DNA from: Antedon mediterranea | Taxonomy: Eukaryota; Echinodermata; Crinoidea; Comatulida; Antedonidae | Reading direction: 5' to 3' | Assembly: GCF_964355755.1 (NCBI RefSeq) | Contig: NC_092680.1 | Location: forward strand, 14,301,001 to 14,365,000 | Length of the DNA stretch: 64,000 nt | Shown here: piece by piece, positions 7,091 through 61,240 of the stretch | Numbering within the stretch: position 1 is the first letter of the stretch | Layout: each line of letters opens with the position of its first letter | Program-made: the position numbers and the translations under genes | The notes under the pieces: model-generated | The model's input: the letters and a program-made list of their open reading frames with translations, nothing else | What the model was told of the DNA's origin: nothing | The model's database searches: none

Positions 7091-8593
7091 TGCACTTGTC
7101 AATTGTATGACGCACTATACGACCCCCGGGAGAGGTGCATCATTTGTCCGATGTGAGTCATACCTTTGTATACCATGACGCATCCCTGCGTCAAAAAAGT
7201 GACTTACCTTTACTAGACAATGACGCACCTATTTTTAAATCAGCGACGGACCTTTTAGTGAATTATGATTTGAACGATTTGCGCAATTTAAAATTGCGCA
7301 AAGAATTCCTTGCGCAATTTGAATTGAAACATCTGTTTCAAATTGCGCAAGCAACGTATTAAATTGCGCAAGTAATCTGCAAATTGCGCAAGGTTTTTTT
7401 CGACAGATTGTGAAATCATGCACACCCATATTTTTATAGTAATTTCTAAGAATGATTCAAAATTAAAGATAATATCGTATTTCCTTATTTTTTGTAGTAG
7501 TGAAAATATTGTTATTGTTAGCATACCGTCGAAGACCCGACAAAGGACCACAAAGGTGGTGTTCCCGGCGGGCACGTGCACGGCGGGCGGCTAATTACTA
7601 CTCTAGCCTACTACTGGCTATGTTTTGATAGCAAGTCTAAACGTTGGTGGCGGTAGACTATGTTGTGTATTACTACATTAATTTTTTTTATTTTTACATT
7701 TATTTTGATTTATTTTAAGTTACAATGAGTGATAATATTATTTAATTGTGTATGCCATTTATGTTGTGTATTATACACATGTTATCTTCGCATTTATTAT
7801 GTTTCATTTTGAGTTATTAGTTTCGAATAAATTATTATTATTGTTAACCGATCGTCGACGTTAGCACGCATTCTGGTAGAATTCTGCTGCGCAATTTGAC
7901 AATTTTACAAATTGTGCAGCGCAATTTGAAATTGCGCAAGGATTTTCTTGCGCAATTTGATATTGCGCAAGTTGATTGCGCAATTTAATATTGCGCAAGA
8001 AAATCCGTGCGCAATTTGAAATTGCGCAAGGAATTTTTTGCGCAATTTCAAATTGCGCAAATCGTTGAAATCGCGCATAACAATGACGCACCACGACTGT
8101 CTTTTTGACGTACCTTCACTGACGATTGTTGACCCCGACTACTGCGCAGTGCATGCAGTGTGATATCAAAAATCTCAAACTAATACGCGTGTCTGGTGCT
8201 ATGGAGGCGCGCCAGGGTCGTCGATCGATGTTAATCAGGCCGGCTAGGAACGTTCTCGCGCGATCACACAATCACACAAAGATTGGAACGGCTATTTATA
8301 ATACAAATATTATGTCATTTTCCAGTTTGGCCGATAGAGGGCGCGAGTGATGACGCTCTCAAGCGTGACAATGTACAACGCAACCTGGCCGCCCCTCCGC
8401 GATCATCAAGGCCTTGTTTTCAGGCTTTTTGGGTGACGCGGGTCGATGGTAAAGTGACGGACATTGAACATTGAGGCGACGCACCATTTGGGTTCTTTGA
8501 CGCACCCCTGTGTCATTAATTATTTGTAAATGACGCACCCATGACGCACCACTCCCGGGGGTCGTATAGTGCGTCATACAATTGACAAGTGCA
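7091..8593. mobile_element. 1.5 kb inverted-repeat element with GCGCAATT-rich blocks
   Basis: Terminal inverted repeats of about 48 bp start TGCACTTGTCAATTGTATGA and end with the exact inverse. TAA lies just outside both ends (7088-7090 and 8594-8596), a possible 3-bp target duplication. Two internal blocks (7278-7390 and 7888-8062) carry about 15 GCGCAA/TTGCGC words, mostly as TTGCGCAATTT or AAATTGCGCAA in alternating orientation. TGACGCACC words recur near both ends. Small ORFs across the element look spurious, so it is probably non-autonomous. Confidence 0.8.
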
Positions 8594-16130: not shown

Positions 16131-18066
16131 ACTGGTTGAATACTGTCCATGTACAGTACTGATTGAATACTGTCCATGTACAGTACTGATTGAATACTGT
16201 CCATGTACAGTACTGATTGAATACTGTCCATGTACAGTACTGATTGAATACTGTCCATGTACAGTACTATCCATGTACAGTACTGATTGAATACTGTCCA
16301 TGTACAGTACTGATTGAATACTGTCCATGTACAGTACTGATTGAATACTGTCCATGTACAGTACTGATTGAATACTGTCCATGTACAGTACTGGTTGAAT
16401 ACTGTCCATGTACAGTACTATCCATGTACAGTACTGATTGAATACTGTCCATGTACAGTACTGATTGAATACTGTCCATGTACAGTACTGATTGAATACT
16501 GGCCATGTACAGTACTGATTGAATACTGTCCATGTACAGTACTGATTGAATACTGGCCATGTACAGTACTGATTGAATACTGTCCATGTACAGTACTGAT
16601 TGAATACTGGCCATGTACAGTACTGATTGAATACTGTCCATGTACAGTACTGATTGAATACTGTCCATGTACAGTACTGATTGAATACTGGCCATGTACA
16701 GTACTGATTGAATACTGTCCATGTACAGTACTGATTGAATACTGTCCATGTACAGTACTGATTGAATACTGTCCATGTACAGTACTGATTGAATACTGGC
16801 CATGTACAGTACTGATTGAATACTGTCCATGTACAGTACTGATTGAATACTGTCCATGTACAGTACTGATTGAATACTGTACATGTACAGTACTGATTGA
16901 ATACTGTACATGTACAGTACTGGTTGAATACTGGCCATGTACAGTACTGATTGAATACTGTCCATGTACAGTACTGATTGAATACTGTCCATGTACAGTA
17001 CTGATTGAATACTGGCCATGTACAGTACTGATTGAATACTGTCCATGTACAGTACTGATTGAATACTGTCCATGTACAGTACTGATTGAATACTGTCCAT
17101 GTACAGTACTGATTGAATACTGGCCATGTACAGTACTGATTGAATACTGTCCATGTACAGTACTGATTGAATACTGTCCATGTACAGTACTGATTGAATA
17201 CTGTACATGTACAGTACTGATTGAATACTGTACATGTACAGTACTGGTTGAATACTGTCCATGTACAGTACTGATTGAATACTGTCCATGTACAGTACTG
17301 ATTGAATACTGTCCATTTACAGTACTGATTGAATACTGGCCATGTACAGTACTGATTGAATACTGTACATGTACAGTACTGATTGAATACTGTCCATGTA
17401 CAGTACTGATTGAATACTGTCCATGTACAGTACTGATTGAATACTGTCCATGTACAGTACTGATTGAATACTGTCCATGTACAGTACTGATTGAATACTG
17501 TACATGTACAGTACTGATTGAATACTGTCCATGTACAGTACTGATTGAATACTGTCCATGTACAGTACTGATTGAATACTGTCCATGTACAGTACTAATT
17601 GAATACTGGCCATGTACAGTACTGATTGAATACTGTCCATGTACAGTACTGATTGAATACTGGCCATGTACAGTACTGATTGAATACTGTCCATGTACAG
17701 TACTGATTGAATACTGTCCATGTACAGTACTGATTGAATACTGTACATGTACAGTACTGGTTGAATACTGTACATGTACAGTACTGGTTGAATACTGTCC
17801 ATGTACAGTACTGATTGAATACTGTCCATGTACAGTACTGATTGAATACTGTCCATGTACAGTACTGATTGAATACTGGCCATGTACAGTACTGATTGAA
17901 TACTGTACATGTACAGTACTGATTGAATACTGTCCATGTACAGTACTGATTGAATACTGTCCATGTACAGTACTGATTGAATACTGTCCATGTACAGTAC
18001 TGATTGAATACTGTACATGTACAGTACTGATTGAATACTGTACATGTACAGTACTGGTTGAATACT
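16131..18066. repeat. 27-bp minisatellite, about 71 copies
   Basis: Consensus unit GATTGAATACTGTCCATGTA + CAGTACT. Units vary mainly at one site: TGTCCATG, TGGCCATG or TGTACATG, plus a GGTTG variant. The TGTACATG form makes TACTGTACATGTACAGTA a perfect palindrome. A 12-unit, 324-bp higher-order block occurs twice (from about 16609 and 16933). Because 27 is a multiple of 3, long ORFs open in both strands; they are not genes. Confidence 0.97.
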
Positions 18067-31400: not shown

Positions 31401-34400
31401 GTACCATTGCACTCATAAACATTCATTATTTGTATATTATTCACATAATCACACCATATGATATTCACATAATCACACCATATGATATTCACATAATCAC
31501 ACCATATGATATTCACATAATCACACCATATGATATTCACATAATCACACCATATGATATTCACATAATCATACCATATGATATTCACATAATCACACCA
31601 TATGATATTCACATAATCACACCATATGATATTCACATAATCACACCATATGATATTCACATAATCACACCATATGATATTCACATAATCATACCATATG
31701 ATATTCACATAATCATACCATATGATATTCACATAATCATACCATATGATATTCACATAATCATACCATATGATATTCACAAATCACACCATATGATATT
31801 CACATAATCGCACCATATGAATACAAAATACTGTATTACAACACATTTCTATTTGTATTAAAATTCATTGACATGATCTACAATTTACCAATGACTTTGA
31901 TACAATTTTTACTGTATTTTATCACTTCTTGATATTAATTGTGTTGTATTTTTTATATTACACCAAAAAAAATGAATTCCTCCCCGAATAAACGCCTCCT
32001 CCGAATTAACACCTCCTCCGAGTAAGTGCCCCCTAAAAACCCTCCTGAACAATAAATGCCCCTGACGGATTTGAATAAATATGGTAAAAAGATCAATGAA
32101 TTTTATATGTTTACATATTTTTATTAGCTACTTAATATTCTTTATTTGAATTTGGTACAAATAATATGTTTATTTTTCATTTATTTAGGGAGAATCACCC
32201 CCGCATGCATTTTGTAAAATTAACAAGAATTTAAACAAAGGTGCAGTGGTTGGATCAGATGTGTACATGTGCTACAAGAAATCGGCTATAAAAAGTGATT
32301 CAGTTACGTGTCAAGCAGGTAAAAATTGTGTCAACCTCTTTTTTTTAGTCGTTGTTAAATATTGGTTTATTGGTTTATAAAACATATAAGCGGTCTTAAA
32401 ATACAATTTACAAGTTATTACTTAGTTAAGTTGACAATTAGTAAATAAGAAACACTACAAACTACACATAAAGTTTCAATAATATATTTTATATACTTCT
32501 ATTTATATTATATAACATATCTGACTGTATTCTTGCAATTTGATTGGTTAATTACGCATCACATATCATTTGGAATTAGCCCCAGCCGAGTTGAAAATAG
32601 TCAATTTTTCAACTCATGACAGTCAATGTTTCAACTCGGGGAAATATTTTCACCATCCAACTATTAAACTTTCATTATTTGTAAATTATTCAATGATAAA
32701 AAATCTGCCATTAACTTGTTCTTTTCTAGAAACATTGAGTCGATATCCATTAGAAGACCATGAATCGTTCAACCTGCCAGATTCTGTGGCAAGGTTTTGC
32801 CTACCCATGGGGGCTGTGATTGAATGCTGGGCTAAGGATAGAATGCATCCATTACCAGTGTTCTCAACATTCATTCTTACTGATAGCTCTGGTGAAAAGG
32901 TATGGTTTAACGCTTATACAACAACTCATGCGAACACACAATAATGTATATTGTATAATCTGAATCCACAATTTATATGTCAACCCTTTTATCTGTATAC
33001 AATTGTTTACGTTAAACCAGTTATTAGATATGTATGTTTGCGACGTTTCAATTTGTTGAAAATGCCCTACAAAATAGGACGGATCGCTGCCTAATTTGCC
33101 TTACGTTGTTACTTGAATTCAAACTGATTTGATTTTCTGTAGACTGACTTAAGCGGCGTAAAAGATCATTTTCGACACGGTTGCATATGCTTATTCGGAT
33201 CCAACCTGTGGTTATACAATGTTATTTGTGTCGCTACGACATAGAGTTGGCTCTTAATGGAACCACAACAAAGGCTTGCTATTCTTCTCAATCCAAGTGG
33301 AAATTTCAGCAATTGATTGATTTTACCATTTCTTCCTTTAGATATATGGTGCTGCTGTTACATTTTATGAAAGTTATCCCGAAGAAAGCCTTACACCTCA
33401 ACAAGCAGTAGCCTTGAACATAAAGCAAAAGAAAGAAGATGGTTATAGTATCAATACAAATAAGGCTGTCTGTCTACTTTCTCGTTGGCCATTCTTTGAT
33501 CCATTTAAGAAGTTTCTTTCATTTTTATACCGTTTGTCAATATCAGGCCCTCATGAAATACCAATTGAAAGGTTAGTTTTAAATGTTTAGAGACAAGAAT
33601 GTATTAATCCATCTTCCTAATTTTCACCAAATTTTGTAACCAGGTCCAGTACTATATTGTCAAGAAAAAAATAATTGGAAGATCTCAAATGTTATAATAC
33701 ACCTCTAATCAGGAAATATCTGTATAATAACACAGCTGCTATAACTTTTATTCAAGTAATCCGCTGCTTCAATTTTGGATGCAAAATAGATCAGTTATAG
33801 ACGGCACACAATACAGGTTTATTTTTGATGATGATTCGCCTTGCATGACAGCAAATTCTTTACATGTTTACAAAAACCTGATCATTGTTATTATCACCAT
33901 TATATATATAAAATGGCAAGAGGTGAATGATGAAAGGTTATATTTCAACGAGGCGAATATAAAACATTCATTCTTTGTTTTATATAACATCTAAATAGAT
34001 TCCTATCATTTGAATCAGATTGAAAATGAAACAGTAACATTTGGTTTTTAATAATATATTAAATATTATATTTATATGGATTTTATAAACACACCTACTG
34101 TAGTGTTAATTATTTCAACAAACGACCAAATAATCCTAGGCCTAGCAAGACTATAGCACCTAGGCCTAGCCTAATACTAACAGGTCTAGCCTAATACTAA
34201 CAGGCCTAATACTAACAGGCCTAGCCAGGTTAGAAAGGCAGTGATACCATTACGAAACTTCGACAGACAACTGAAACTCATCTAGGCTAATTCTGTGTTT
34301 TCCAACGATTCCACGTCTTGTAGAGATGTTCCCATTATTTAATCAAAATTATACAAACAGCTAATTAAGCTAATTTAAATGCCTTTTTTGGTCCAAGTGA

Positions 34401-37400
34401 TTTACACAAATATCTTAATTTAATTTCTTTAATTACACAGATATATTGCACACTTTATTCATGAGGTTCCATTTCCAACACCACAGAGACCTAGGATTCT
34501 AGTTCCAGTAAGTTTTCTTCTTTTGTTTCAAATAATGTTTTTTTTGGCGTTTCAGATAAAAGTTTCACAGCGATAACTGGTTAAATGGTGTTCTAAACCT
34601 ACGTTATTTTCAGGTTGCCGTTTAACCGGTTACTGAAAACTTGTGCTGTTTCTGCTGTAATGAAATTGAGCTATTTTATGTCCATATATGTATACACTGA
34701 TCCACTAAAAAGTCTAATATTTGAATTTCTTGAAAATGAATATGTTTTCTGTATTACAGCTTGCACATGATCAAATGATACTGACGCAGCCTAGGATGAC
34801 AGCAATACCTCTGAGTGGGGCGTCCTTCTGTGCATTACTTCGAAACCTAGGCCCAGATAATTGTATGAATCTATTAGTGTATGTTTTATTAGAACATAAG
34901 ATGTTACTACATTCTCTGCGACCAGCCTTGCTCACTAGTGTTGCAGAAGCTGTATCAATGGTAATTAATAACATTATGGTTTTAATTAACTAATCATGTG
35001 TTTTAGTATAGTATGTTTCATTATTAATATCCTGTTGCAATTTGTATTGTTTACCCCCTGATGCTTATTGAAATAATTTACCGTCTTATATAAACATTTC
35101 CTTATTTAGTGCTTATGGAGTAAGTAATTCTATGTTTCATAACCATAATATCAACTATGTGCCCTATTAGCCTGTTTGGGTGTTCCTAATTTCTAATGCT
35201 TGGAAAAGCTTGTTTTACCCATATACTACATTTTATTGAAAAAATGTAACTTTTCTGGCAATATACCATTGGTTAAATAGGTCATTTTCAAGTAGTCATG
35301 TCGTAATTCACAGTAAAAAGTTAGTTAAATTTTTTTAACCATTGAAATTTTAAGATATGTATTTTAAAATTTTTTTCCCAGATGATATTTCCATTTCTAT
35401 GGCAGTGTCCTTATATTCCACTTTGCCCTTTGACCCTGTGTGGTGTTCTCAGTGCGCCACTTCCGTTCATCGTAGGTGTTGATTCTCGTTATTTTGACAA
35501 TTATGAAGCACCCTCTGACGTGACTTGTGTTGATATCGATACCAACAGTCTGCTGCAGTAAGTCAAATTTAAATATTTGTTTTGCCATGCATGATAATGT
35601 TAGTTAAAGACATACTCTCATTCTGATATACTCTCACTCTGATTCTCTTACTCTAGCTATTAAAAATAAAAAATGTATTACTTTAAATACAATCAAAGTA
35701 ACTTACTGCAAAAAAGCGGAAAGAATAAAAAGTTTGCAGTCAATTTAAGAATCTACAGTGTCTGTAAATCACTCAAGCTTCAAACTGTTACTGTTCATTT
35801 GTTAAGAATTATTACTTTGCAGTAGGTCCCTCCCTTTAGGACACCACAATTCAGGACGCATCTCTATTAAAGGGACACTTTGCAGTAGGTCCCTCCCTTT
35901 AGGACACCACAATTCAGGACGCATCTCTATTAAGGGGACACTTTGTAGTAGGTCCCTCCCTTTAGGACACCACAATTCAGGACGCATCTCTATTAAGGGG
36001 ACACTTTGTAGTAGGTCCCTCCCTTTAGGACACCACAATTCAGGACGCATCTCTATTAAGGGGACACTTTGCAGTAGGTCCCTTCCTTCAGGACACCACA
36101 ATTCAGGACGCATCTCTATTAAGGGGACACTTTGTAGTAGGTCCCTCCCTTTAGGACACCACAATTCAGGACGCATCTCTATTAAGGGGACACTTTGCAG
36201 TAGGTCCCTCCCTTTAGGACACCACAATTCAGGACGCATCTCTATTAAGGGGACACTTTGCAGTAGGTCCCTCCCTTTAGGACACCACAATTCAGGACGC
36301 ATCTCTATTAAGGGGACACTTTGTAGTAGGTCCCTCTCTTTAGGACACCACAATTCAGGACGCATCTCTATTAAGGGGACACTTTGTAGTAGGTCCCTCC
36401 CTTTAGGACACCACAATTCAGGACGCATCTCTATTAAGGGGACACTTTGTAGTAGGTCCCTCCCTTTAGGACACCACAATTCAGGACGCATCTCTATTAA
36501 GGGAACACTTTAATAAAGTTCACCAATAAACTAATGTAGTAACAGCTTAGCCTGTTGTCTGCAATCTGTATACATCCAATCAGATATAAACATACTCAAG
36601 TACTAATTTTTCATCTCCCGATATTTTGTATCTGCAGTTCTCCTAGTAAAACTTCCCCTGGTTTTGTATTTTTGTTTTGATTTGAAAAAAAATATCACGT
36701 AATGTATAACATTGATAATTTCTACTAATACTAGGGCCTGGCATACCTATGTTTACTATTATAGATGTCAATTTTTGTAATAAATTCAAATAATAACTTT
36801 ATTTTTCCAAGATGGGAGGTCTGTTACACATATTACAATGTCATTTTCAATGTTTCTTATTTTCTTTAAAAATGAATACATAGTACCTAAACTATCATTG
36901 TACTATATGCATCATACTTTCATTTCATTTTTAATTTATAAGTTTATATACTGTATAAACACAGTTATTTTTATCACAGGAGTGACGACCGAAAAGGACA
37001 AAATTGGAAAATGCTTCCAAAGGTTAGAAAACAAATTTTTATTTGTAATTAATTTGGACTTTTGTAACTCGCATCCTTTAATTCTTCTATTATTTTATCA
37101 AACATACTTAGCAAGAATAATTTTAACTTTATTTTATGTCATTTTTATTATATAATTTGTTATACTTTTTTTAAATAGAAGCTGGCAAGACGTTTACACA
37201 CAAGGTTGGAAACTTTGTACGTGGAGCTGTGTCAATCCAACGTGTGGGATGGCGTATCGGATGATCTGGCTGTTGAGATAGCACCCATTGACCTTGATTT
37301 TAGTCGCAAAAAGAAACAGGTAAGTCGCTAGATAATTTCTGTAAAACCTTAAGCTCTGTCTACACTATAAAAATAGTTTGACAAAACAGTGTGATGTGCC

Positions 37401-40400
37401 CAAACATGGTAGTGATATGATATCATCATCCATATATGGGCACATCACATTTTTTGTCACAAGTTTGATAGAGCTTTAGAGTCAGTCAGTGAACTTTAAC
37501 ATGTTGCAAAACCTGTGGAGCACTAAGTTCACCCAAGATCCTAAGGTTCAAATGAAAATTTATCATTCAATTTTTGCTCTCTATATCACAAAATATAGGA
37601 TAAAAAAAAAAGTACCAATAGCCAAGTAGTTAAAAAAAACAATATAATACAACTTTGGGATATCTCTATACATCTATAATGTAATGAAATAAACATAATT
37701 GATTCTACAGGCTCACATGGAATTATGCATCCAAGAGGCATTCCTTGTTTTCATGGCATCCATGCTGAAGGGGTATCAACAATATCTACTGCCAATCACA
37801 CAACAACCTAACATGAGGACCAAAGATGCCGCCTCTAGGTTTGATGGCCCAGGTAAATTAAAATCATCTTATGCAGTAAAACTAATTTAGCGTTAGGCTT
37901 AGGCCTATATAACTTATCTGGTAGGCGCGACCGAATCTACGCACAAAATGGAAACGAACGCCCAATAAGCACGGGTTTAATTCTTATTTTTAGCTGTTCG
38001 AAAATCATTTAAAATACAATTTATAATTATAATTATAAATTTAAATACTAGAATTTAAAAAAAATGTATACCTACGAAAAATAATATTTAATTAAAAGAA
38101 ACAATACTCACACAATATATATTTAAAAAATTTAAACTGGGTTAAAAAAAGTATGGTTCAAAAGTTATCATTTAAAGACACTTTTTGGGCCATATCTAAA
38201 AAAGTGTTTGAGGACCCCCCAAAAGATAGTCTTGTGCAACTCTGTGGTATCTATGGGTTTGGCAAAAAAAAGAACATAAACAAGAAATATTTCTTACAAA
38301 AAACGCTGCTCGCTTATTGAAAAATATTTTTTATTTTAAATGTTTTTGAATGTGTCATTTTATTGTCACATAATAGTTATTTTACCTGAAAAAAATGTAA
38401 TTTAAAGCAACAAATACTTAAATTGTCTGTCAGACAATGGTTTTTGGGTTTCTTTTCTTTTTTTTATATGTGAATAAATATTATTTTTTTGTTACAGAAG
38501 TGAATACTCAATTTCTGTCACTTTAGTTAATTTTATTGCTAAGGTCAAATCTGGGGGTCACTTCATCACCCTAGATATTTCAATTGTGAAGTATCCTATT
38601 ACAAACACAAACTTTAATGGACTGTTTCGATAATAATTCAATGAATATCTGACAGTGAATATACCAGAAATGCTTAGGGATTTGTAATTTTAGCATGACA
38701 TGTCCTAATAGACTCTTTCCCAGACGTTTTTTGGGTCTACTGTAGCAGCTGGAATCAATAAATTATAGTGGAGTTTCCATTTTCACAAAACTGTCTGTCC
38801 TTAGAACTATAACTGCTGCTTGCTTTAGCTTCTGATTGAGTATTCCTAATGGGACGTAGCGGGCTAGAGCAGCAGCGTGAAAAAATAAGAATAAAATTAT
38901 CTTATTATATTATTATCTAATTCTGCTATACTAAAAACTAAAGAGAGTACAGTTGACTCCGCCTAAGTCGAATTCGCTTAAGTCAAATGTTTATGAAAGT
39001 CTCAATTCTTTCCTATACATTACAGTGTAATTTTTATTTGTAAGTCGAATTTTTCTAAGTCGAAATTAGGTGGAGTTGACTGTATATATTATGAACTATA
39101 CACAAAATACAATATATCTATTACTCCATTTTGTCAATCGAAATGGGAAACAGAATTTAGAAATATGAACTTTAAGTGGAATGAAATATGGTTAGAAAAA
39201 GTATATAGCATGAAACATGTAACAAAAGTAGCACAATTTAATTTTAAACTGCTACATCGGATTCTGGCATGTAAACAACGAATGAAGATATGGAAAATAT
39301 CACACTGCCAAAATGAAATTGAGACAGACAAGCACATGCTTTTGAAATGTAAAAGTATCCAAAAAGTATGGACAAAATTCAATAACATGATTCTAAAATG
39401 CTATACACCTGAAGAAACCGTACATGATTGGCTAGACATTGTTATTGGAACAAAAAGTGAAAATGTCAATGAATTATTATCACTGTTTACTTTTTGTATT
39501 TATAAAACAAATTTTATTAAATCATTAGAAAAGCATTCAAAAATGAGATCAAAAGTCGTCTGGAACTTGTTCCGATATGAGCTAAAAAATCTTATACAGA
39601 ATCAATATGCTTGTAACATAAACAAGGCAAAAAAGAAGTGGGGTAACGTAAAAAGAAAATTATTAACTTGTATTTCTTAAAATTACATTTTATTTTAATT
39701 TTTATTTATATATATATATTTTATACAATTTCTATATATAACTACAATGTGTAATATGAAGAATGAAATAAAAGTGGGTTGGCCCCACAAAAGAGAAAAA
39801 AAAACTATACACAAAATACAGTATGATATGGAATATGCATCATTGCACACGGCTCTGTATCCCGGACAATGTTGCCAGGCTAATGTCAGTACCCCATTTT
39901 AAATGGGCGAATTTATATTTTGTAACAATATACCTTCGAGTAACACCTAATGGCCCCCAAAACATTATTTTGAAATGAAAGAATATCAAAAATCCATTTG
40001 AGGTTCAGTTTAATAAATGCAAATGAATATAGATAAAACATACAAATTGGCATCTGTTCTACTTGTTTATTGTACATTTGAGAATTCTCAAGCGGAGCTT
40101 AACTCATTAGTCTGGCGTTCACCTCCAGGCTTCAGATAGGGTTAGATTTAAGCCCAAGGAAGCAAGTGTGTATTGAACTACAGGATGAGAATTTAAGAAT
40201 TACTAAAAAAAACTCTTGTTTAACAAGAAGATCATCAAGTGATTCAATTATTACCAAGTTACAAACAAATATCAAAGACAAGCAAGTTGGAAACAAATAT
40301 AATTAAATTGTGGTATCCCAAACATATCGAGAAACAAAGACAGCTAGGAGGCCACCGTCAGGAGTGTACTGATCAATAACACTGGAGATATCCATGAACT

Positions 40401-43400
40401 AACATCATCTTACATTTCTTTTTGTGAGGAACTAACCATTCTCCAAAAACAGATTAACTTTTTTGTTTTTAACATAGTTGATGTATTTTAACTACAATGT
40501 ATTAACAAATATTTCCTTATTTTATATAAATTAGACCAATAAAAGATGAATTTAATTGAATTTTGCAAGGGTATGGCAAACATTTGACCACTTAACTAAG
40601 CTCCCTGACGCAAATCTACTTTGAAGTAGTTCCTTTAATTCTCAGCCTTTATTTCCTTGACACATGAGCCAGAAATAGAAGAATAACTCGCTATGAACGT
40701 GTAAACAGATTTTAATATCATGTTGTTGTGTTATTTCTTTTTGATAGGTTTTATCAAAAGTAGAGATAAGATGTCACATGCATTTTTTAAGCAATTCATT
40801 AAGACCCAGATGTTTATGAGCTTCATTGAGGAACGTTCTTTTGTGTCTCACAATGATGATATCTTTAACTTCTTTGATGATTGCACAAGGAAGGTGAGGA
40901 ATAAAATATTACATTCAGATGATATACTGTACATACATTATTACAAATTAATTCATTAAATTTCAGTATATCACCAGGTGGTTTAAAATTAATATTCTTT
41001 GCCTGTTGTGTTTATATATAAAAGCATCTCTCCGAAGATGCTTATGGGTTTTTAAAAGGTGTGTGAGAAGTTAGTGGAAATATAGAAAAATACCATTGTA
41101 TCCTGTTACACTATATTCTCAAATGTTGTGGATTTTTAACTTTTAAGAGGTTATTTTTCATAGGTTGATTCTGAAGGTAGAGAAGAAATCAAATTACTTG
41201 AAACTGAAGACTCGTCGCTAAACAGTGAGCACACAGTGTTTGTTGCACCTCCTGAACCTACAGGCAATGAAGATGAAAATGGTTATAGGTAGGTTTCAAA
41301 AAATGATAAATTATAAGGTTTATACACTACCTGTCATTACTATTAATTAGTTAAGTGGCCAAGTGGTAGTGCAGAGGTGCTGCCATAAAATTGGCACAGG
41401 TTTGAGGCTCTTGTTTACCATAAGGCCAATTTACACAGATGAGCGTTAGCAGTAAACGGAATCGGATAGAATCTATGTTATTTTTTTACATTTACCCGCT
41501 CAAATTCAAATTATCTTTTATTAATCCTTTCGGAAATTCATTGCTCATTTTACAAATATATATATAAAAAAATATAATTAATTTGAAACAATAAGATGTG
41601 GAAATCTGTGAGAATTAATTACATTTCAGTATATCACTGGGCGGTTTAGAATTAATGTTCTATGCCTAATTTGTTCATAAAAAAAATATATATAGATACA
41701 TATTTTATGTGGGGGCAAGCACGCAGATTTTCGCTTACCGTTAACACTCCTCTGGGTAAGTAGGCCTTTATGGTGATAGAACTAGTTCAGATAAGAACTA
41801 AACACTAAAGGTTCTGGTTCGTGTGCAAACTAGTTAACCCTTTGAAGAGTACTGGTTTATCTTATGAACAGGCATGAATCATGACGTCATTTGATTGGAT
41901 GTGTGAAAATATCATTTTCATGGAAGTAAGCATAGATGGTTAATTTATTGTTCTAAAATTAAAAGGTTTTATATTTTTTTATTTATGTATGAATGCATAT
42001 TTGTCTATTTATCGTCGATTATTATCGTCCTAGTGTAAATTGGCCTTTACAGTATTTTTTTTCTCTGGTTAATTTTTTAAATTAACATTTTGTCCTTAAA
42101 TCCTCTGAAAACGCTATGTTATTTTGGTCTTTTCAAATTTTAAACTAGATTTTCTGCTATATCCATTAATTTCTTTAAAGTTGATTTGCAAAAAGACTAT
42201 AATAATATTTCAGCATTTTATTTCATATTTACTAATAACATAATTTGTTTTATTTTACAGCTACAATGTTTTTCCAAGGTTAAACAGTGATTGTTACAAC
42301 ACATCTTCTGCAACACCACTCAAGCGTGGTAGAAGCACCAAAAGCATTCCAACAAGTCCAGTACCACGACGAACTAAACAAGAAATAAAGAGTTCTTTAG
42401 AATTGGCAAAGAAACAGGCATCATCACCAGAAGAATGGGCAAAGTATGTATTATTTTTGTTTGTTTTTAGGCTTAACTATAATATATATATATATAATCA
42501 GTGTACCATGTCCCACATACCTGGCTCAGCCTATATATTGTGCCAGTTCTGCGGTACATTTCATTTCGAAACCTGAGCTGCACTGACGAGATCTAATAAG
42601 ATCGAAACAGTACTGTCTGCAGATTGGGTATATATATATATATATATATTTTCTTTAATAAGCAGTTGTATAGATAATATGTTGTATAGATACAATACAG
42701 TACATCATCTTAGCCTGACAGAACTCTGACTGGGCCTATGTGGTTGAGACTTGGTTACTACTAGGCCTAGCTGAATGTTAAGATTCTATTCCACCTTTTG
42801 TTAGTCAGCATAAGCCTGGTTCACAGTTGTGTTGCGATATAAGCAGTGTTTACAAGAAACGAAATATAAAATTCATAACAATTATATTAATTTAAATAGC
42901 TTTAGTCTTTCCCTTTTCCTCTTTCTAATGAGAATCAAGCTCCTTTGTGAACATCAACATGTTTTATGATTCACTGCTGCTTGGGGCAGACCAAAACTAG
43001 GCAATGGTTAATAATGCCAATTTACCTTAAAGCTCAGGTACAGGCATGAATTTTAAATATAATATTTGGTTAATTGTACATAAATCAAATATTTGTAACA
43101 GAAATCAAGACGAAAAAACATGAATTTCTCTTAAAATGGTCAAATACAAAATTTGAAGAAGACTTTTTTTCAGTAATTAGGTAGTTAACCTAATGTAATA
43201 ACATGTCTGGTGACTCCCTAGATGGTAAAAAAAGATGGTGGATATACGGTGGATAATTTTTGCTATAGCATGAAAATAAAAATCTGAAGTTGAATAAAAA
43301 TATCAAAAATGTAATATTCAAGTTATATTACCTATATTTAGTCATCTGATAACATTTTTTACCACACCGTTTATTTTTCATAGCTTTTTAAAATGCCTCT

Positions 43401-46400
43401 CTATTTACAAAATTTGTGTACAAAAGAATAGAGATTTTACTGTGTAATTTGAACTATCCCCCCACTGATAAGAAAGTGCTTATTTTCAACAAGCTCGTGT
43501 AACACAAATAAAATCCCCAAAATTATGAAACATAGGGGAAACTATAGATTGATAATTATTGGAATGTATGATCAATAGAAATGTTTTGCCCGCACCTGGC
43601 CTTTAAGGGAAATTATTGATAAATTCACGAAAATTAAGTGATTGACTTGAAATATGTTTTATTCTGTGTAGATGTTTAATGGGTAATTGCTATAGTATAT
43701 GGTTCACACATCTGCCATCTTACGTTAAATCCAGTCACTCAAAGACCAGAGCACTTCGAACTGCTTTTACTGTATTAAAGAAAATGCAGACATACAATCT
43801 AACTCTTGCTGATGAAGTGTGCTACAGGGTTATAATGCAGCTATGTGGACAGTACTGTCAACCTGTTCTTGCTGTACAGGTCTTTATGGAGATGAAGAAA
43901 AATGGAATCACTTTGAATGCATCTACGTATGGCTACTATAATAAGGTTTGTATGACATTTTCTAAATTTCTTTTTTTCTAAATGATAAAAACAATGTTAT
44001 GTAAATGACAGTGGCATGGCTGCATGAATGACAGTTTTTATTCTGGTTTTTTTCTGTGGAAGTGAATAACTTAATTAAAACTACAAATGGTTCTACTCAA
44101 GTTGTTATTAGTTTAATGTTTTGGGAGACAATATTATATCTTTTAAGATCATGTTTCTAAAACTTTAACCATTTACCTGTATATCCCATAGTAAGCTACT
44201 GAATCTATTTAAAAAATATGATAAACTGGGACAAAATTGTAGGCAAAGGTTTTCGGTTTTAAATGAATGTATGTTGTCTTGACCACATAAAACAAGTAAA
44301 ACCTCCGTCATCCACCGCCATCATATACAAATTAGCTATATAACCCATATTTTCAGGAAACTTGTATCCAAGTCATTTGAGTCCAAAACAAAGTCTCTAC
44401 AGACATTTTAGTTGCATTATGTATGCAAACATTGATAAATAGGGTCGAGGGTCAATTGTTGTATTTCCGGTCATTTTTTCGTAAAATGTTTTATCAGAGC
44501 AAATATAAATATGTACATTCTGAACAAGTTCTTGGAAAAATAACTCTCTAGCCTTAGCGGTTTTCGATATATAGGAACCTGTAATTTCACCCCCTAATTT
44601 GCATATTTCATGTAACTTGTACTAATAATTTGCATACTTGGAAGGTGAGTGATACAGGTGTGATTTTGAGATTTACTAAACAGTCCTATGTTGGCTATTA
44701 GAAACCTGTATCTAAGTCATTTGAGGGCAAAACAAAATCTCTACAGACATTTTAGTTTCATATGCAATATTGAGAAATGGGGTCGAGAGTCAAATGTCAT
44801 ACTTCCGGTCAATTTTTTGTAAAATGTTTCATTGGAGCAAATAGAAATATGTACATTTTGAATACGGCTGTGAAAAAATCAACTCTCTAGCATTAGTGGT
44901 TTTCGAGATATAGGACAACTGTAATTTTTCCTCCTTATTTGCATATTTTATTTAATTTTTACTACTTATTGTATACTTTCGAGGTGTGTGACACAGGTGT
45001 GATTATGGGAATTACAAAGTGGTCCTATGCTCGCTATTAGGAACCTATGTCTGGGTCATTTGAGGGCAAAATAAAGTCTCTACAGACATTTTAGTCACAT
45101 TGTGTATGCAAACATTGAGAAATGGGGTCGAAGCTCAAATGTTGTACTTTCGGTCATCTTTTTGTTTCATTAGAGTAAATATAAATATATACATTTTGAA
45201 TAAATTAGTGAAAAAATAAACTCTTGGACTAGTAGTTTTTGCGATATTTAATTTGCATATCATCGGGATGCTCAAATTTTGATCTCCTCATCATATATAA
45301 CCATTTAAAAAAGAAAAATCTCTGTTTGCAATTTGTTTCAATTTGGGCTGTTTTGTTTGATAGATTGCCTAGCCTATCGGGACAACATATACATTTACTT
45401 AAAACTGGAAAACCGTTGCCTACAATTTTGTCCCTCTCAAATGCTAGATTCAGTAGCCTAATCGTTACTGTGCACATTTTAGTAAATTAAATTACTTTTG
45501 GGCGTGGGATAATCATTATTTATATTTGAATACAATTATAGTGTTGATGATACTCTGTGGCCACTTCTGCTATAGGATATAGGACAAATAATATTATTCA
45601 TGACTAATGGTTATTTGTACTTTTTGCAGGCGGTTTTAGAAAGTCCATGGCCAGCGTCATCATTCACTGCTTACCAACAATGGATAAAGCTACGTAATGT
45701 TATAATGGCAGTAGGACGATTTCGACAAGGTCTCAAAAGGCCTAACTGGGATACGGTAAGCGAAACAGACACGCGTAGTGGCAGTAGCGTCGATGTTGAT
45801 ATTGCTGTTGGGGAATCTAAACCAGAGATTCAACTAATTGATATTGATGGAAAATTAACACGAGAGGAAAAATGTGGTACAGGTAAGGGTAATTTTAAAG
45901 GACAATTTAATAATTTCTTTGCACTGCATTGTACTATATGACATTTACCATAATAGCATGCTGTCGGCAAACTATTACTTAATTTCTTGGGGCTTGCACC
46001 TGCTTCCATAATGATCATAATTCACATTTATTCGAATAAATACAGTATGTAAAACCAAACATTGTCAGATGGAAGCTTGAAGTGTGTGTGTGTGTTGTTT
46101 ACTCTCTAGGAAATTCAGATATGGGATACGCATCAATGATCGAAAGCCTAGGTAGTACCGATCTGCTTGGCTCTCCTGATGCAACCATGGCCCCATTGCA
46201 GATGAGTTCACCAGCTAGTCCATCCCGAAGTCCTCAATGCTTAATGGACAGGAGTTCTAACGAAGATGACGCTACAATAACGCTCAGTGAGTGCTATGTA
46301 TATATAGATGTTGGTTTCATAGTCTTGTTTATTTATGGTGATTTTGTGGTGTATGTGTGCAGTCATGGAATTCTTTGTTTACAATAGGGAGGTTTCGCAA

Positions 46401-49400
46401 TCTTACGAATACGATAACGAAAATGGATACGTCACACACACGTATTCGTTTTTCGTAAGTCTGTCAAAATCCATGGCAACGAAATATTGAGGGCGCCGTC
46501 CAAAATATGACTGCGGTAAATTTGAGCGAAGCGCAGGTACGTGTTGCTTGGTGCTTGGCTGCCAAGGCCTAGCGTAACATCAAAGCGAGTGAGAACTTTA
46601 AAAACTGCTATTTATCAAAATTGACCTGACATTTTAGTAAATTACTTTAGTAAATTACTTTAAATAAAAGTATAATTATATTATAATCAGGAATCATTCC
46701 TGATTCAAATGCAAAATGTGCAAAATAGATCAAAACCTATACTCGTTTTGTAGTTACGAGTATGACTGGTGATATTTGTCAACACGAATACGCTTTACGA
46801 ATATGAAATGGGGATCAGCTCAAAAGTTTCACAAATGTGTGACGTATCCGTTTTCGTTATGGTATTCGTAAGGTTGCGAAACCTCCCTATTATCATGCAA
46901 ACTATACTATTACAATGTATTTTCATGTATATTGTCTAAAAAGTGTTTCATCAATCAGTTATACTGTAGATAAATTCAATAAACAAATGATTTTCGGTTG
47001 CCTAGGGAATCATTACTGTTTGCCTAGCAATGTCTTAAAGTGATAATGTAGACAAAAGATTCCATCTAGGATCGGTTGCTTTGTAGTTCAATTGTAAATA
47101 TGTATTTTGATTTTTATGATAAACAAACTATACCTCACATTATATAACATAAGGTATTAAATACTCACAATAATTTAATGAATTTTGTAGTTTTTTAGCC
47201 ACCTGTTTGAAAAATTATGCAAATTGCACCTCTTAATATACTGTATGCATGACACTGTTTTAAGTATTTCAAAAAGACTTGTGACACACTTAATTTGTTA
47301 TATTAAATTATAGTTATGCTGACTATTAATTAATATAACTATTTTGATATTATACAATAATAAACTAATAAAAGAATTCACTACTTTCCTAATAAACTAT
47401 TTTATAAAATAGAAAATACATTATATTAACATGAATAATACTCTTTTAATATAGTTAATTGTGTTATACTTAAATTGTATTATAAACTATATCTACATAA
47501 TGACAAAGCGTTATATAATTTCAATATACAAAATCCAATTGCATTTTCTTAAATTTACTTCTCTTCTCTAAAGTGCTTTACTCTACGCAATATTAAGTTT
47601 GCATGTGCATTTAGAGGCTTTTTGATTTAACACGCTTTCACTCCCTGTTAGATAAACATTCTGTGAAAAGTGTTAAGCCATCTAAGGTGGAAGGAATACT
47701 GGGTGATATCCCTGGTGTTGGACATTCAATAGTTCGTAATGTCAAGCCCAGCCATACTAGTATGAGCAGTGTGGCTACCTTAACTGGAAGTAGTACAAGT
47801 AAGTTGGATAGTTTTTTTCCGGCCAAAATTCATTTCAATTCCATTTCATGTTATATATTATACTAAAAATTGATTTCTTCATTTCATTATGTATATTATA
47901 TACACATAACGTCTTTCTGTCCATTCAACTTTTCCTTGAAGACGACGCTGGAATTTTGACCGATAACTGTTTTATTCTGATGTACTCATTATAAAAACAG
48001 GCCCTTGTTATTAGATTTTGTGTTTCTTTGTGTTTATACACTGTAGTACTATAGAAAAACTACCAATATTTCTAACTTAGATTTGGAAATCGGTTATGTT
48101 TTTGTTATTTTTCTGCCTTTTTAAAATAATTCAATTGCCTAATTCAAGATAATCTAGAAAGAATATTCTTTATTATGTAATAATTTGTATTAAAATTAAA
48201 TTATAAATACAACATTTAATAAGAGAACGCTTTGTACAGACAGACACAAGGATTATGACATCACTCTGCCACTCATTGCTGTGTGTAAAACTGTCATTAG
48301 TCGCTATTCAACTTGGTTATCACACTGTTGCTTTATAGTTTGCACCATATTTTATAATGGTTACTACACTTACACAAAAGCGTAATCCTTCTCTGTCATC
48401 TTAGAGGCAGAATGACTACAGCACTATATTTGTTTATAGCTTTTGCTGTACATGCTTTAACTGTGCTAGTGCTTATTCTTGTATGCCTATTTTAGTCTCT
48501 TTATTACTTTCAACTTTTACTTTTTATCTTATTATTTTCATTCCTTTGATTTTTTACAACCTTAATTATTATTTTTCCATGCATGCTATTTATAACTTAT
48601 GTTCTAAATGTGTAACCTTATAAAAATAATTATTATGAATACCATATTTTATTTAAAAAAATGAATTTTCCAAACTCCACCAAAATTTAACTACACAATA
48701 TTTTGGAAAATGTTTATCATTCATTGCTGTAGTGAATGAGTGCATACACATGTCAGGTTCCAATTTTGACCAATCATTGGTCATCATATGAGTGCCCAAT
48801 ACAAATAAAATATGGTTTGTTATTATTGTATAAGGTTACTAAAGTGAATATAAGACATCCTTTTATCACTTAAATGCAACAGGCATTTAATTTTTTTAAA
48901 TATTTTTTATTACCCTATTTAATTTTCTTTTAATTTAATTTTTACCATCCTCTTATGGTTTTCTGTTGATTTTTTAATTTTTTTTTAAATATTTTTTATT
49001 ACCCTATTTAATTTTCTTTTGATTTAATTTTTACCATCCTTTTATTGTTTTCTGTTGATTTTTCATTCCCTTCTCACAGGCAGTTCAGCAGGGCTCTTAA
49101 TTACTGGTCATGATTCTGTAGACACTACCTTAGATGATAGTGTATTTGAAAGTCAAGAAGCAGTCAAATGCAGTGCTAGTCGCAAACGCCATTTAAGTAC
49201 GGGCGATTCAAGCCATCTAAGTCCAAGTCAGTGCAATTATAGAAGTCGTAGCACAAGTGGTGATAGTAATGCAACCATCGCGTCCTATCTTACCAGTCAG
49301 CATAGCCTGGACGGTGAATCTAATCTCATCAGGAGCAACCTGTTTGGTAGTGATGCAAAAATTCTTGAAGGCTTTGCAAATTCAAATCCAAAATTAAGGC

Positions 49401-52400
49401 TCTCACCACTTTTAGGAAACTCTTTAAATGAAGAAGAAAATGGAGAAGCCTCGGAGGGTGCCTTTCCTATTCCACGTTGTCAGTCCGACGGGAAGAAACC
49501 AGAACACTGGAATGGACTTCAGTTTGACACTAAAGGAACACCTGAACAACGAATTCAAATGGAAAACTTGATACATGGAATTGAAGAACTAAATCAAAAT
49601 TTAGACACTAAAAAGAAAGATTTAGAATCTGTAGAAAGTATTGACAATAAAGGTGCCTTTATTTCTATAATGGATGATGAGATACCTACAACTAATCTAA
49701 TTGATACATCAATAGAATATGATAATCAATTAATTGATGTCAATTCTGAAAGAACTGTTAGTTCTACTGTTACAGATAACGCAGATTTATTAGTTGATTT
49801 ATCTGTATTAGACGATATTTCAAATACAACAGTTAAAACATTTGAAGTAAATCTTTTAGATGAAAATAATGAGTCCGAATCAACAGAACTGGACTCTGAT
49901 GTTGAAACTGTGAAAGTAGGTAAAAATGAGGTTGTTGTGCCTAATGGACACATTGAAAGTGTGGAGAGAACCCAACACAAAAGTATATTTCAAGGAAGTT
50001 CATCTTTAATGTCTTTGAATGAAGAACAAGACGCAGATTCTCAAAGCACGGACTCATATTCTGGTTCAAAAGAAAACTTAGCATTAGCTAAGAAAACACC
50101 TCGTCGAACTAATAGTTTCTTCTCACGAGTTAGTAATTTTAGTCCTAGAGTATCAAAAATGAATTTGACAAAGACCCTAAGTAATGCCTCTGAACAATTT
50201 GAAACATTACATGGATCTGCTAAGAAGGCAGCCAAAGCTGCACGTGCTGCTGCTACGCGTTATGGTACTAAATTTGTAGAATATGGTCGTCAGTTTTCTA
50301 TTCCATCTATCGACCAGCAAGGATCTCTGGACTCAAATGGCCATTCTCATTCTGATACGCATTTAAACCGGCCCCAGTCTTGGAATGAATTTCAATTTGA
50401 TGGGATTGCTGATGATATTGGAACACCGTTAACAGGTTTGTCAAATTTCCTTTGTATTTATCAGCTTAAGCTGCTGATTCTTACCACAACTCAAGGCTGT
50501 TATCTTTTAGCCATGTAAGAGAACAATGCAACAATTCATAGACTCCTTCAAAAAGCAAACCTTTTTAAAAATTGGAAAACCAGAATATTCTTAATGTACA
50601 AAAAGAGTCCCAGTTTCCCTTCTCTTCCATAATGTCTTCTGTAAACCAGACTATCCAAATTCCAAATGCTTTTGAGATTACTAGTTTTTGTTTACTGTAT
50701 TATAGCATTTAAATATTTTTTTTTTACAATTTATAGAAAAAAATTTCAATTATTAAAAGCAAATTAATATAACTGCAGTATTATAAAATATTTCATATTT
50801 AAAAGTTACAATTTTCTTGCCATTAGCTTTTAAAAAATCATAAAATTGAATATTTTCAGCAATTGCCACAATTCATTGTTTTAATTTAACCAGTTCATTG
50901 TTGATTATCTATTTTATTTAGTTATTTTCATAATCATTCCTGTACTAATATGGGCATATATGATACTCTACATATAAATTACATGTTCATTTTCATACAC
51001 ATTATGTGATAATTTGTCAGTTTTGTTTATAGTTTTTATACTTTTAAATCACTAAGAAATAATTTAATATATGTTTATACTTGTTAACATTTTTTCAGAA
51101 TTTAGACAAAACAATTTTTTTAAACAAAAATATTTAAAATATGAAAAGTTGATTCTCTTAACTCTTCATCTCAAATGCTTTACAGTTTAAGGAAGCTGAC
51201 ATTTCAGCGGAGTTTTTTCCCAATAGCACTGGATTCGTTATCAGTATTATTTAGGTGTTGCTTTCCTGGACCACATTTTATAGATGGATAGTTTGTGCTT
51301 AGCCAAACTTAGTTTTTAACTTGGTAAAGCAACAATCAAAGATAAGTTAACTATAGGCCGTAGTGATTTGTATTGGACATTGTACACCAAGTTAGTACTA
51401 GAGCCATGGTAATTACATATATTAGATATCTTCACACTGAATTTAATACAATAAGATATTAAAACAATGGATGAATTGCATTTTGATAGACAATGTATGC
51501 TTTAATATTGCTTGTTTATGTTTGCCATGTTGTTTGAGTAATTGTATATGTATGGCAATGCATAATTAAAACTTATCCACCTTTATAACTATACTTGTCA
51601 TGGTTTAGTATAAAATTATTAGATTGTTGATAAATATATATTATTTTTTTATTCAATTTTAAACACTTAAAAAAAAAATCCTAAACTAAATATGTTGCAA
51701 TTAATATAGTCTATAAATTCAATATTCTATTCTAGGCTCCATGGGGGAACAGTTTTGTCCTGTACTGAAGTGGTTACCTAGTATAAAGAGAAAGTAGATA
51801 AATTAATTGTAAAATGGTTTCATTCAATCTTTATTATTTCATTTGTATTTGCTATGATCCCAAATTTTAATTGCTATAATTCGATGAATATAATCGCTCT
51901 CCTACGTAACTTGATAGTAGATTTTAGCATGGAGTTAGATACCAGTCCTCCGTTATTTTAATCCTTCCCACCAAATATTTTGTTCAAGTTTCAAAATATA
52001 TTTTACTATATACAGGATATTCCTCAATTAAGATTTTACTAACTTGAAAACATATCTTACAAATATTAACAAATGTGCCCAAACATTGGCATATTTCTTA
52101 ATTAAAATTATTAATAAATTTATTCTTTTGCATAATTTATTAGGTACTGTATATTAAAGATGTATTGGCCCCTGAAAAAATAATTCTTAAACATTTTTGT
52201 TGTTGAATATGCCATTTTAATGTCAACTATTAAGTGTTATCTACTTTTTGACCAAAAATTGGATCCAAAAGAAAATGTATTTACATACAAAAATGTTATT
52301 ATTTAATATGGGGTTTTGGTTGAATTTTACCATTTGTCATTTTATAAGTGAAAACATTAATATTTTTTTTTTGTTTTTTTTTCTATGGAAGTGATACTTT

Positions 52401-58669: not shown

Positions 58670-59028
58670 TCTTACCAGTTCATACACTCTGCTCACTGTA
58701 TATTTATATAGATATTTAGTGAGGTATCTTTACCAGTTCATACACTCTGCTCACTGTATATTTATATAGATATTTAGTGAGGTATCTTTACCAGTTCATA
58801 CACTCTGCTCACTGTATATTTATATAGATATTTAGTGAGGTATCTTTACCAGTTCATACACTCTGCTCACTGTATATTTATATAGATATTTAGTGAGGTA
58901 TCTTTACCAGTTCATACACTCTGCTCACTGTATATTTATATAGATATTTAGTGAGGTATCTTTACCAGTTCATACACTCTGCTCACTTTATATTTATATA
59001 GATATTTAGTGAGGTATCTTTATCTACA
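58670..59028. repeat. 58-bp tandem repeat, 6 copies
   Basis: Unit ACCAGTTCATACACTCTGCT + 38 more bases (CACTGTATATTTATATAGAT...). Starts at 58674, 58732, 58790, 58848, 58906 and 58964. Copies are almost identical, so it expanded recently. Downstream of DENND4. Confidence 0.96.
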
Positions 59029-60516
59029 GAAGGAATACATATAATAATAGAAATTAAATGAAGACTGTAAATTAAAAATTAAAAAAAAATCTTTGAAATT
59101 GATTTCCCATGCCATTCACACCCTTATCAATGTTAGTGATACGATTATACATTTTTTTCAAAGCTTGACAATATTTATTATAATTGTATACTTTATTGTT
59201 TAAATGCGATTTATTTTTTATGTTTTTATGGCCACGGTTTATCGCTAACTTTGATCAGTAGGAACAAACTTACCCTGATAAATAACCAAGTTTTGAACAT
59301 GCTAATTTTGTTACTCAAGTAACTAAATGTTACTTGTGTACTGTTTAAACTTTAATTCAATATTATGGCTCCCAACAATTATTTTCTCTATTCACATCTT
59401 TCTTGTCAATGACTGTTGTTGGGGAAATCCTCTTTATCTATTGGAAATCCATTTCAAGGAAAAGCATTCAAATATACTGATTTACTGTGTGCATTTCATT
59501 AAAATCATATCTCTTAAGTGTATTCTATATTTACCCCTATGTTATTTTGTTGTCATTTAAAATATATAATTATATATTGGTCTATTTTTTTAATGGTTGC
59601 CATGACTTAAAAATGAGTTTCAATCATATTATGGTGACCCACCACACATTGTTTTATCTTTATAGTATATTTCATTTTTGTTCTCACTATTCATTATTAT
59701 TTGTATACAATGTATGTGGAAAACAAATAAGACAAACAAACTTTATTTATAATAATTTATGATTTTGATGTTCAACTATGTAATGCCTGCCATTATAGAT
59801 GTTTTGTTGTATCATTTTTTGTCTATATTACATTAGTTGACAGTTGTCTACATAATAAGTTGTATATATGGTTTTTTGATTTTGTTGATAGTTGTTTGTG
59901 CAATTAATAATTTTTGTAATAGTAAGTACAGTTAATTTTGTATCGCATGGGTGGGTTGTAAAGAAAAGGTCCTCAAACAATAGGAATTGAGGAACGGAGC
60001 ATTTTGTGATTTCAATTCTTTAATCATGAATCGTATCAAATAATGTAATAACAGTTTAGAGACCTTCAGTGTAAATGCAATTAACAAAGTGTGTTGTTTT
60101 TTAGGACCTCTAAGGACTAAAATGTTTTGTTAAATAAATTATAATATATTATTACTTTTCTTTTATAGACCTTTTAGCAGGTTCCATCTCTTAATACAAT
60201 ATTCTATATCAGATACATCTTAGAGGAGATTAAAATTATTATGACACCAACCATGGATTAATTTTAATTTTCCAACACGCTTGACTATACTAAAGTTCTG
60301 CTGCCAATCAAACAAACATGCTCTTTGTCATGTCTCTAACCACGGCCCGTAGAAATCGTATGCGCAGTCTGATTGTTCTATTGACATGTCATGTATGTCG
60401 TTACCTATGGCCTGGGATTGGCTGGCTATGTATAGTTGCGATACGTCACTAATTCTACTACTCAAGCGCTCGTTTTAAAAGTAGACGCATTTTACCATTT
60501 CTGATTTTTTAACTAC
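59029..60516. other. AT-rich intergenic DNA
   Basis: Short ORFs near 59327-59762 have low-complexity composition and no recognised motif. GC rises after 60290, just before the 72-bp repeat. Confidence 0.4.
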
Positions 60517-61240
60517 AAGTACTACTACTAGGCGTATTAATAGTAGTACTACCGTGTCTATATCCAGCCTGGTTCTTGTACTCCAATTAAGTACTACTAC
60601 TAGGCGTATTAGTAGTAGTACTACCGTGTCTATATCCAGCCTGGTTCTTGTACTCCAATTAAGTACTACTACTAGGCGTATTAGTAGTAGTACTACCGTG
60701 TCTATATCCAGCCTGGTTCTTGTACTCCAATTAAGTACTACTACTAGGCGTATTAGTAGTAGTACTACCGTGTCTATATCCAGCCTGGTTCTTGTACTCC
60801 AATTAAGTACTACTACTAGGCGTATTAGTAGTAGTACTACCGTGTCTATATCCAGCCTGGTTCTTGTACTCCAATTAAGTACTACTACTAGGCGTATTAG
60901 TAGTAGTACTACCGTGTCTATATCCAGCCTGGTTCTTGTACTCCAATTAAGTACTACTACTAGGCGTATTAGTAGTAGTACTACCGTGTCTATATCCAGC
61001 CTGGTTCTTGTACTCCAATTAAGTACTACTACTAGGCGTATTAGTAGTAGTACTACCGTGTCTATATCCAGCCTGGTTCTTGTACTCCAATTAAGTACTA
61101 CAGTACTACTAGGCGTATTAGTAGTAGTACTACCGTGTCTATATCCAGCCTGGTTCTTGTACTCCAATTAAGTACTACTACTAGGCGTATTAGTAGTAGT
61201 ACTACCGTGTCTATATCCAGCCTGGTTCTTGTACTCCAAC
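60517..61240. repeat. 72-bp tandem repeat with internal hairpin, about 10 copies
   Basis: Each unit contains AGTACTACTACTA then GGCGTAT then TAGTAGTAGTACT, a 13-bp inverted repeat, followed by CCAGCCTGGTTCTTGTACTC. One copy near 61098 has a 5-bp insertion that breaks the apparent reading frames. Confidence 0.96.

Follow-up and report, generated by a model that had tools for sequence, protein, structure and literature searches.

A type I hammerhead motif in an intron of a DENND4-type gene of the crinoid Antedon mediterranea, probably left by a small retrozyme-like retroelement

Does the crinoid Antedon mediterranea carry a self-cleaving ribozyme within an intron of a protein-coding gene and, if so, where might it have come from and what might it do to that gene? 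These questions are raised by a stretch of 64,000 nucleotides (nt) of its genome (NCBI RefSeq assembly GCF_964355755.1, contig NC_092680.1, positions 14,301,001 to 14,365,000 of the forward strand), hereafter the window, to which all coordinates refer. A complete hammerhead ribozyme had been predicted at 42571-42629 of the plus strand, and reading of the sequence together with the printed base pairs bore this out: the invariant core (CUGANGA, GAA, A15.1-U16.1 and H17) is present in full and in order, and three helices of 5, 5 and 3-4 pairs are possible around it, with stem I open-ended. The further claim that the motif is of type I, has a short stem III and sits in sense orientation within a DENND4-type intron was supported both by the motif and by the host gene, which gave matches to uDENN, DENN and PPR in that order, the domain composition of DENND4 proteins. 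Judged from its sequence, the element is very probably a real type I hammerhead motif lying within that intron.

Two details of the pairing originally proposed were refined. Stem III does lie at 42607-42616, although its ACAG/CTGT pairing is better written as three base pairs (ACA/UGU) closed by a GUAC tetraloop, because the energy model disallows a 2-nt loop; the same ten nucleotides (ACAGTACTGT) form a palindrome, predicted to give these 3 bp and the GUAC loop in a monomer and 10 bp between two copies. The outer part of stem I (ACC/GGT, 42571-42573 with 42627-42629) is present as described, and a fuller pairing is also possible (ACCUGA/UUGGGU, containing a single G-A mismatch), in competition with an open loop 1. 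Stem II has an alternative form of 4 bp with a UAAUAA loop.

A motif grammar that included the stems found a single site on the two strands of the window (42583, plus strand), which was still the only one when up to one core mismatch was tolerated; none was found on one strand of 20 Mb generated by an order-1 Markov model. All-Watson-Crick stems of 5, 4 and 5 bp around a perfect core would be expected 7.6e-07 times per window, which argues against the motif being a non-cleaving look-alike, whether arisen by chance or decayed, an explanation that we regard as very unlikely. In its favour, the relaxed form of the motif has an analytic expectation, from base composition, of ~0.001 per window or ~17 per Gb, so that a whole animal genome, if large, would hold some chance copies. 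The bare core pattern, taken without the stems, was not significant (3 matches in the window against 3.4 expected).

The motif is probably a type I hammerhead left behind by a small, non-autonomous, retrozyme-like retroelement, now solitary, probably truncated to ~132 bp, and lying in a TA repeat; from its sequence, it seems likely to be able to cleave in some form. We infer all three of catalysis, origin in an element and absence of a host function. An element of the metazoan retrozyme type would have brought the hammerhead into the intron, and, on transcription of the DENND4-type gene, the three stems could assemble about the core in the intron RNA, whose self-cleavage 3' of C42617 would yield 2',3'-cyclic phosphate and 5'-hydroxyl ends. 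Cleavage of the monomer would probably be modest, because a competing helix (ACUG/CAGU), with a greater predicted stability, can arise earlier; two copies (e.g. two transcripts) might join through the palindromic stem III in an extended double hammerhead. Little effect on the gene would be expected, since the intron is normally spliced out. Retrozymes seemingly lack promoters and may rely on read-through transcription (PMC7761336), which the intron location would supply.

What weighs against this reading comes from the covariance scan, the predicted folding and the surrounding DNA. In the scan, no Rfam family reached its gathering score: at the curated thresholds the whole window gave zero matches, a result that also favours the look-alike. 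The best match of the motif was Hammerhead_HH9 (RF02275), which we take to be the C10orf118 hammerhead; it covered 42566-42639 on the same strand with 32.8 bits, against a gathering score of 52 bits (E = 2.2e-4 over the 64-kb window, 1.4e-6 over 400 nt). The original prediction had named a covariance score below threshold as grounds for its rejection, and formally this is what was obtained, though with a significant E-value; the motif is not filed as HH9, and the score is read as that of a hammerhead outside the HH9 family. Positions 42578-42622 alone scored 25.3 bits, and RAGATH-1-hammerhead also aligned there (19.0 bits, E = 0.12). The stem I pairing CUGCA/UGCAG is shared with the HH9 consensus. 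As regards putative contacts between loops 1 and 2, loop II and the 5' side of loop 1 align with those of HH9 (UUAC versus UGAG, the U and A being kept), but pairing of the outer stem I may extend across loop 1. The sub-threshold scan of the window returned 28 matches, only one of them to a hammerhead family, the other 27 being to microRNA (24), snoRNA (2) and viral untranslated-region (1) models, all under their gathering scores. Two of the microRNA models, both on a self-complementary tandem repeat (7919-8027), outranked the hammerhead by E-value (9.5e-07 and 1.1e-4), so that the E-value of the hammerhead is not decisive on its own, and the argument is carried by the perfect core and the stems. 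The repeat itself (7919-8060) has self-complementary units of 31 bp, and sub-threshold matches to microRNA and snoRNA models lie on both of its strands.

The predicted folds tell against ready cleavage by a monomer. The best monomer fold had an energy of -17.4 kcal/mol against -13.9 for the hammerhead fold, a gap of 3.5, and the ensemble probability of the hammerhead at 37 C was 0.0015 when the motif was folded by itself and 0.0007 with the surrounding block, falling further at 12 and 20 C. This best fold retains stem II and all but one of the five inner pairs of stem I but loses stem III, in place of which ACUG (42582-42585) pairs with CAGU (42608-42611); it thus ties up part of the core, as might be expected of a look-alike. 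In folds of growing transcripts, which are minimum-energy structures and not kinetic simulations, the competing helix appears before stem III is complete. The energy model credits neither the hammerhead core nor loop contacts, and the HH9 consensus itself showed a gap of 5.5 kcal/mol between its hammerhead and its best fold. When random hammerheads were generated with the base composition of the window and the same inner stem lengths, the gap was at least 3.5 in 267 of 400, and the hammerhead was the best fold in only 6; with a palindromic loop III these counts were 273 and 4 of 400. A gap of 3.5 is thus ordinary among hammerheads and does not exclude activity. A hammerhead fold as stable as -13.9 kcal/mol was rare among the random hammerheads, at 4 of 400 when the loop was random and 5 of 400 when it was palindromic. 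This counts against the look-alike, although the rarity is partly due to the motif also having an outer stem I. The folding strength of the whole block was not notable (z = -1.5 on the plus strand and -1.9 on the minus strand).

When two copies were folded together, the minimum-energy structure was a double hammerhead whose stem III had 10 bp (-43.8 kcal/mol, versus 2 x -17.4 for the monomers), a point in favour of the retrozyme-like reading; the structure was taken from this cofold minimum and its stem I and stem III pairs were checked. Among random hammerheads, the same outcome was obtained for 115 of 400 if stem III was palindromic and for 9 of 400 if it was not. From base composition, a tetraloop would be palindromic with a probability of ~0.08. 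According to a supplementary-figure legend, stem/loop III sequences that would permit such pairing are by far the most common in several repeat-type hammerheads (PMC3088659), and dimeric cleavage has been published for the newt and axolotl motifs (PMC7229834; PMC6155905). Separately, the 11-mer that spans stem III and the cleavage site (ACAGTACTGTC) recurs once on the plus strand of the window, at 43849-43859 in the next coding exon. The AACCT that follows this second copy is unable to pair with stem I, and the copy offers no obvious cleavage target; the recurrence is likely a coincidence.

The block that holds the motif is richer in G+C (0.455) than the window (0.329), a contrast that favours a retrozyme-like insertion, and below the 50% that metazoan retrozymes stay under. 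Like the non-LTR (long terminal repeat) retrozymes of metazoans (Cervera and de la Pena 2020, PMC7229834), it has a type I hammerhead with a short stem III and a palindromic tetraloop; unlike them, it is a solitary copy of ~132 bp. In the literature, the retrozymes of metazoans are tandem repeats of 150-450 bp (PMC7229834), and the window holds no tandem copy of the motif, nor tandem units of that size with a hammerhead; an origin from such an element is proposed here, and membership is not claimed. Nor did the flanks share a target-site duplication beyond TA, their common words of 7 and 6 bases being of chance length. A TA duplication would be indistinguishable here, because a TA microsatellite flanks the block; repeats in Nematostella have target duplications of 15 bp (PMC4918200). 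When 42441-42700 was compared with the window by BLAST, many weak matches to TA runs and to the AT-rich flank were obtained, the best (59803-59869, 69%, E = 1.2e-4) being aligned from 42624 on, and no match spanned the hammerhead core. In some animals, thousands of repeat-borne hammerheads are found per genome (PMC7229834).

AT-rich targets have been reported for a Penelope-like element (PLE; PMC11167929). The TA runs on both sides of the block fit such targets, and we count them in favour of a retrozyme-like insertion, but they would also suit a hammerhead that is a remnant of the pseudo-long terminal repeat (pLTR) of a PLE. In animal genomes, PLE-type hammerheads, likewise of type I, occur mostly at dispersed sites (PMC7761336). 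They and those of Terminons are, however, minimal, without helix III and loop contacts (PMC6155905), whereas the motif described here can form a stem III of at least 3 bp and has a stem II of 4-5 bp. A PLE hammerhead would moreover be expected in a pLTR beside an open reading frame (ORF) for a reverse transcriptase or GIY-YIG domain, and neither GIY-YIG nor Penelope reverse transcriptase was found in the eight stretches scanned, the rest of the window lying outside that scan. A PLE origin is hence unlikely.

Other candidate relatives were sought around the block. A 338-bp tandem repeat of retrozyme-like size (44357-45224; 2.5 copies, 80% matches) lies 1.7 kb downstream; no hammerhead was found in it by the motif scan (up to one core mismatch) or by Rfam to E = 10, and it was rejected as a carrier. 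A tRNA-like short interspersed nuclear element was also rejected: likenesses to the A box and B box occur at 42522 and 42563, with two mismatches each, and are common in the window, in which the plus strand holds 71 box pairs, this one among them, with that mismatch total and 13 that are better, and the minus strand 79 and 8 better. Five DNA patterns gave 0 matches in viral contigs and one pattern gave 0 in bacterial and archaeal genomes; as these are not animal collections, the results carry little weight. Of the 4,029 papers matched by a literature search on hammerheads of echinoderms, amphioxus and hemichordates, the 12 listed contained no hammerhead or retrozyme terms.

The features of the locus are collected in Table 1. 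The reading frame of the host gene carries on past the intron into the PPR-coding exon. The distance of 174 nt first given between the splice donor and the cleavage site is correct, with the GT at 42444-42445; from the predicted cleavage site to the acceptor there are 1055 nt. The original prediction had also stated that no report of a hammerhead in a DENND4 gene was known; one search of the open-licence literature gave no report of a ribozyme in such a gene, the four papers listed, of five with both words, having titles on other subjects. Within the same gene, a 227-amino-acid ORF (38997-39680) showed a weak match to zf-RVT (E = 0.004, below the cut-off) and is perhaps a remnant of a long interspersed nuclear element. 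Elsewhere in the window, a long ORF (49028-50515) had no match in a protein search, and one search of solved structures gave no hit. A 27-bp tandem repeat of ~71 copies, whose consensus unit contains the palindrome TGTACA, occupies 16131-18066, and very regular minisatellites are found at 31438-31820 (24 bp), 35814-36511 (63 bp), 58672-59022 (58 bp) and 60517-61239 (72 bp).

Table 1. Position of the hammerhead motif, its parts and its surroundings in the window
Feature	Position	Strand	Basis or remark
Whole type I hammerhead motif, including outer stem I	42571..42629	+	Direct reading, motif grammar, Rfam HH9
Stem I, inner 5' strand CTGCA (partner TGCAG, 42618-42622)	42578..42582	+	Printed pairs
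Core CTGACGA (C3-A9)	42583..42589	+	Direct reading
Stem II GATCT/AGATC (42590-42594 with 42599-42603), AATA loop	42590..42603	+	Printed pairs; loop aligned with HH9 loop II
Core GAA (G12-A14)	42604..42606	+	Direct reading
Stem III, 10-nt palindrome ACAGTACTGT	42607..42616	+	Predicted folds
C17, predicted cleavage 3' of C42617	42617..42617	+	Place within the motif
Putative inserted element, ~132 bp, hammerhead at its 3' end	42498..42629	+	Between TA runs; limits inferred
Left TA microsatellite run	42482..42496		Sequence reading, BLAST
Right TA microsatellite run	42629..42649		Sequence reading, BLAST
Upstream coding exon, DENND4-type gene	42261..42443	+	AG acceptor, GT donor; putatively exon 15
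Host intron, 1228 nt, GT...AG	42444..43671	+	Predicted from sequence
PPR-repeat exon downstream of the intron, coding, with predicted ends	43672..43945	+	Pfam PPR_2 8.8e-09

Cleavage within the pre-mRNA is plausible. Observed rate constants are 0.8 per min for a coral retrozyme and 0.1 per min for a mussel one (PMC7229834), and mammalian RNA polymerase II proceeds at 3.5-4.1 knt/min (PMC10919898); by arithmetic from these published rates, ~3-21% of transcripts would be cut by the time the acceptor was made. Since the fraction is so small at the coral and mussel rates, cutting would probably have a small effect on the gene and its splicing. Axolotl monomers reach only 6-22% cleavage within an hour (PMC7229834). 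Hammerheads with good loop contacts, on the other hand, can exceed 100 per min, and that of the schistosome nears 1000 (PMC6155905); a ribozyme as fast as the latter would alter the estimate. In earlier work, fast intronic ribozymes reduced splicing while slow ones did not (PMC10919898).

Such speeds would favour a rival reading, a domesticated hammerhead, kept by selection and tuning DENND4 splicing or mRNA level by cutting in competition with splicing. The RECK and C10orf118 hammerheads of amniotes have been proposed to act in this way (PMC3088659; PMC6155905), and the same is reported for the hepatitis delta virus (HDV)-like Cpeb3 ribozyme, the inhibition of which is reported to raise Cpeb3 mRNA and protein (PMC10919898). 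The position on the sense strand of a coding gene's intron, the intact core bases and a best Rfam match to HH9, with an identically aligned stem I, are all consistent with domestication. The Cpeb3 ribozyme resembles the present motif, itself putatively self-cleaving, in being intronic and in that cutting could compete with splicing; its fold is unrelated, and its cleavage site lies 9931 nt from the next exon, as against 1055 nt here (PMC10919898). The low proportion of transcripts cut before the acceptor argues against domestication, and the TA-repeat location would suggest a recent, neutral insertion; we consider domestication distinctly unlikely. An active hammerhead retained by selection to set DENND4 mRNA level or splicing, possibly in a dose-dependent manner through pairing of two transcripts at the 10-nt palindrome, is more improbable still.

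Sense-strand intronic type I hammerheads have already been published in amniote genes, among them C10orf118 and RECK (PMC3088659; PMC6155905). The Antedon motif shares their type, strand and setting in an intron of a protein gene; it differs in its host gene, which is of DENND4 type, and in falling short of the HH9 gathering score. If it is one of thousands of repeat copies, then its presence here would be routine. If it cuts, it would be another intronic hammerhead in sense orientation, its host gene being one on which a search of the open-licence literature yielded no ribozyme report, and a test case for whether a retrozyme-type ribozyme in a host intron is a neutral passenger or raw material for intronic ribozymes like those of amniotes.
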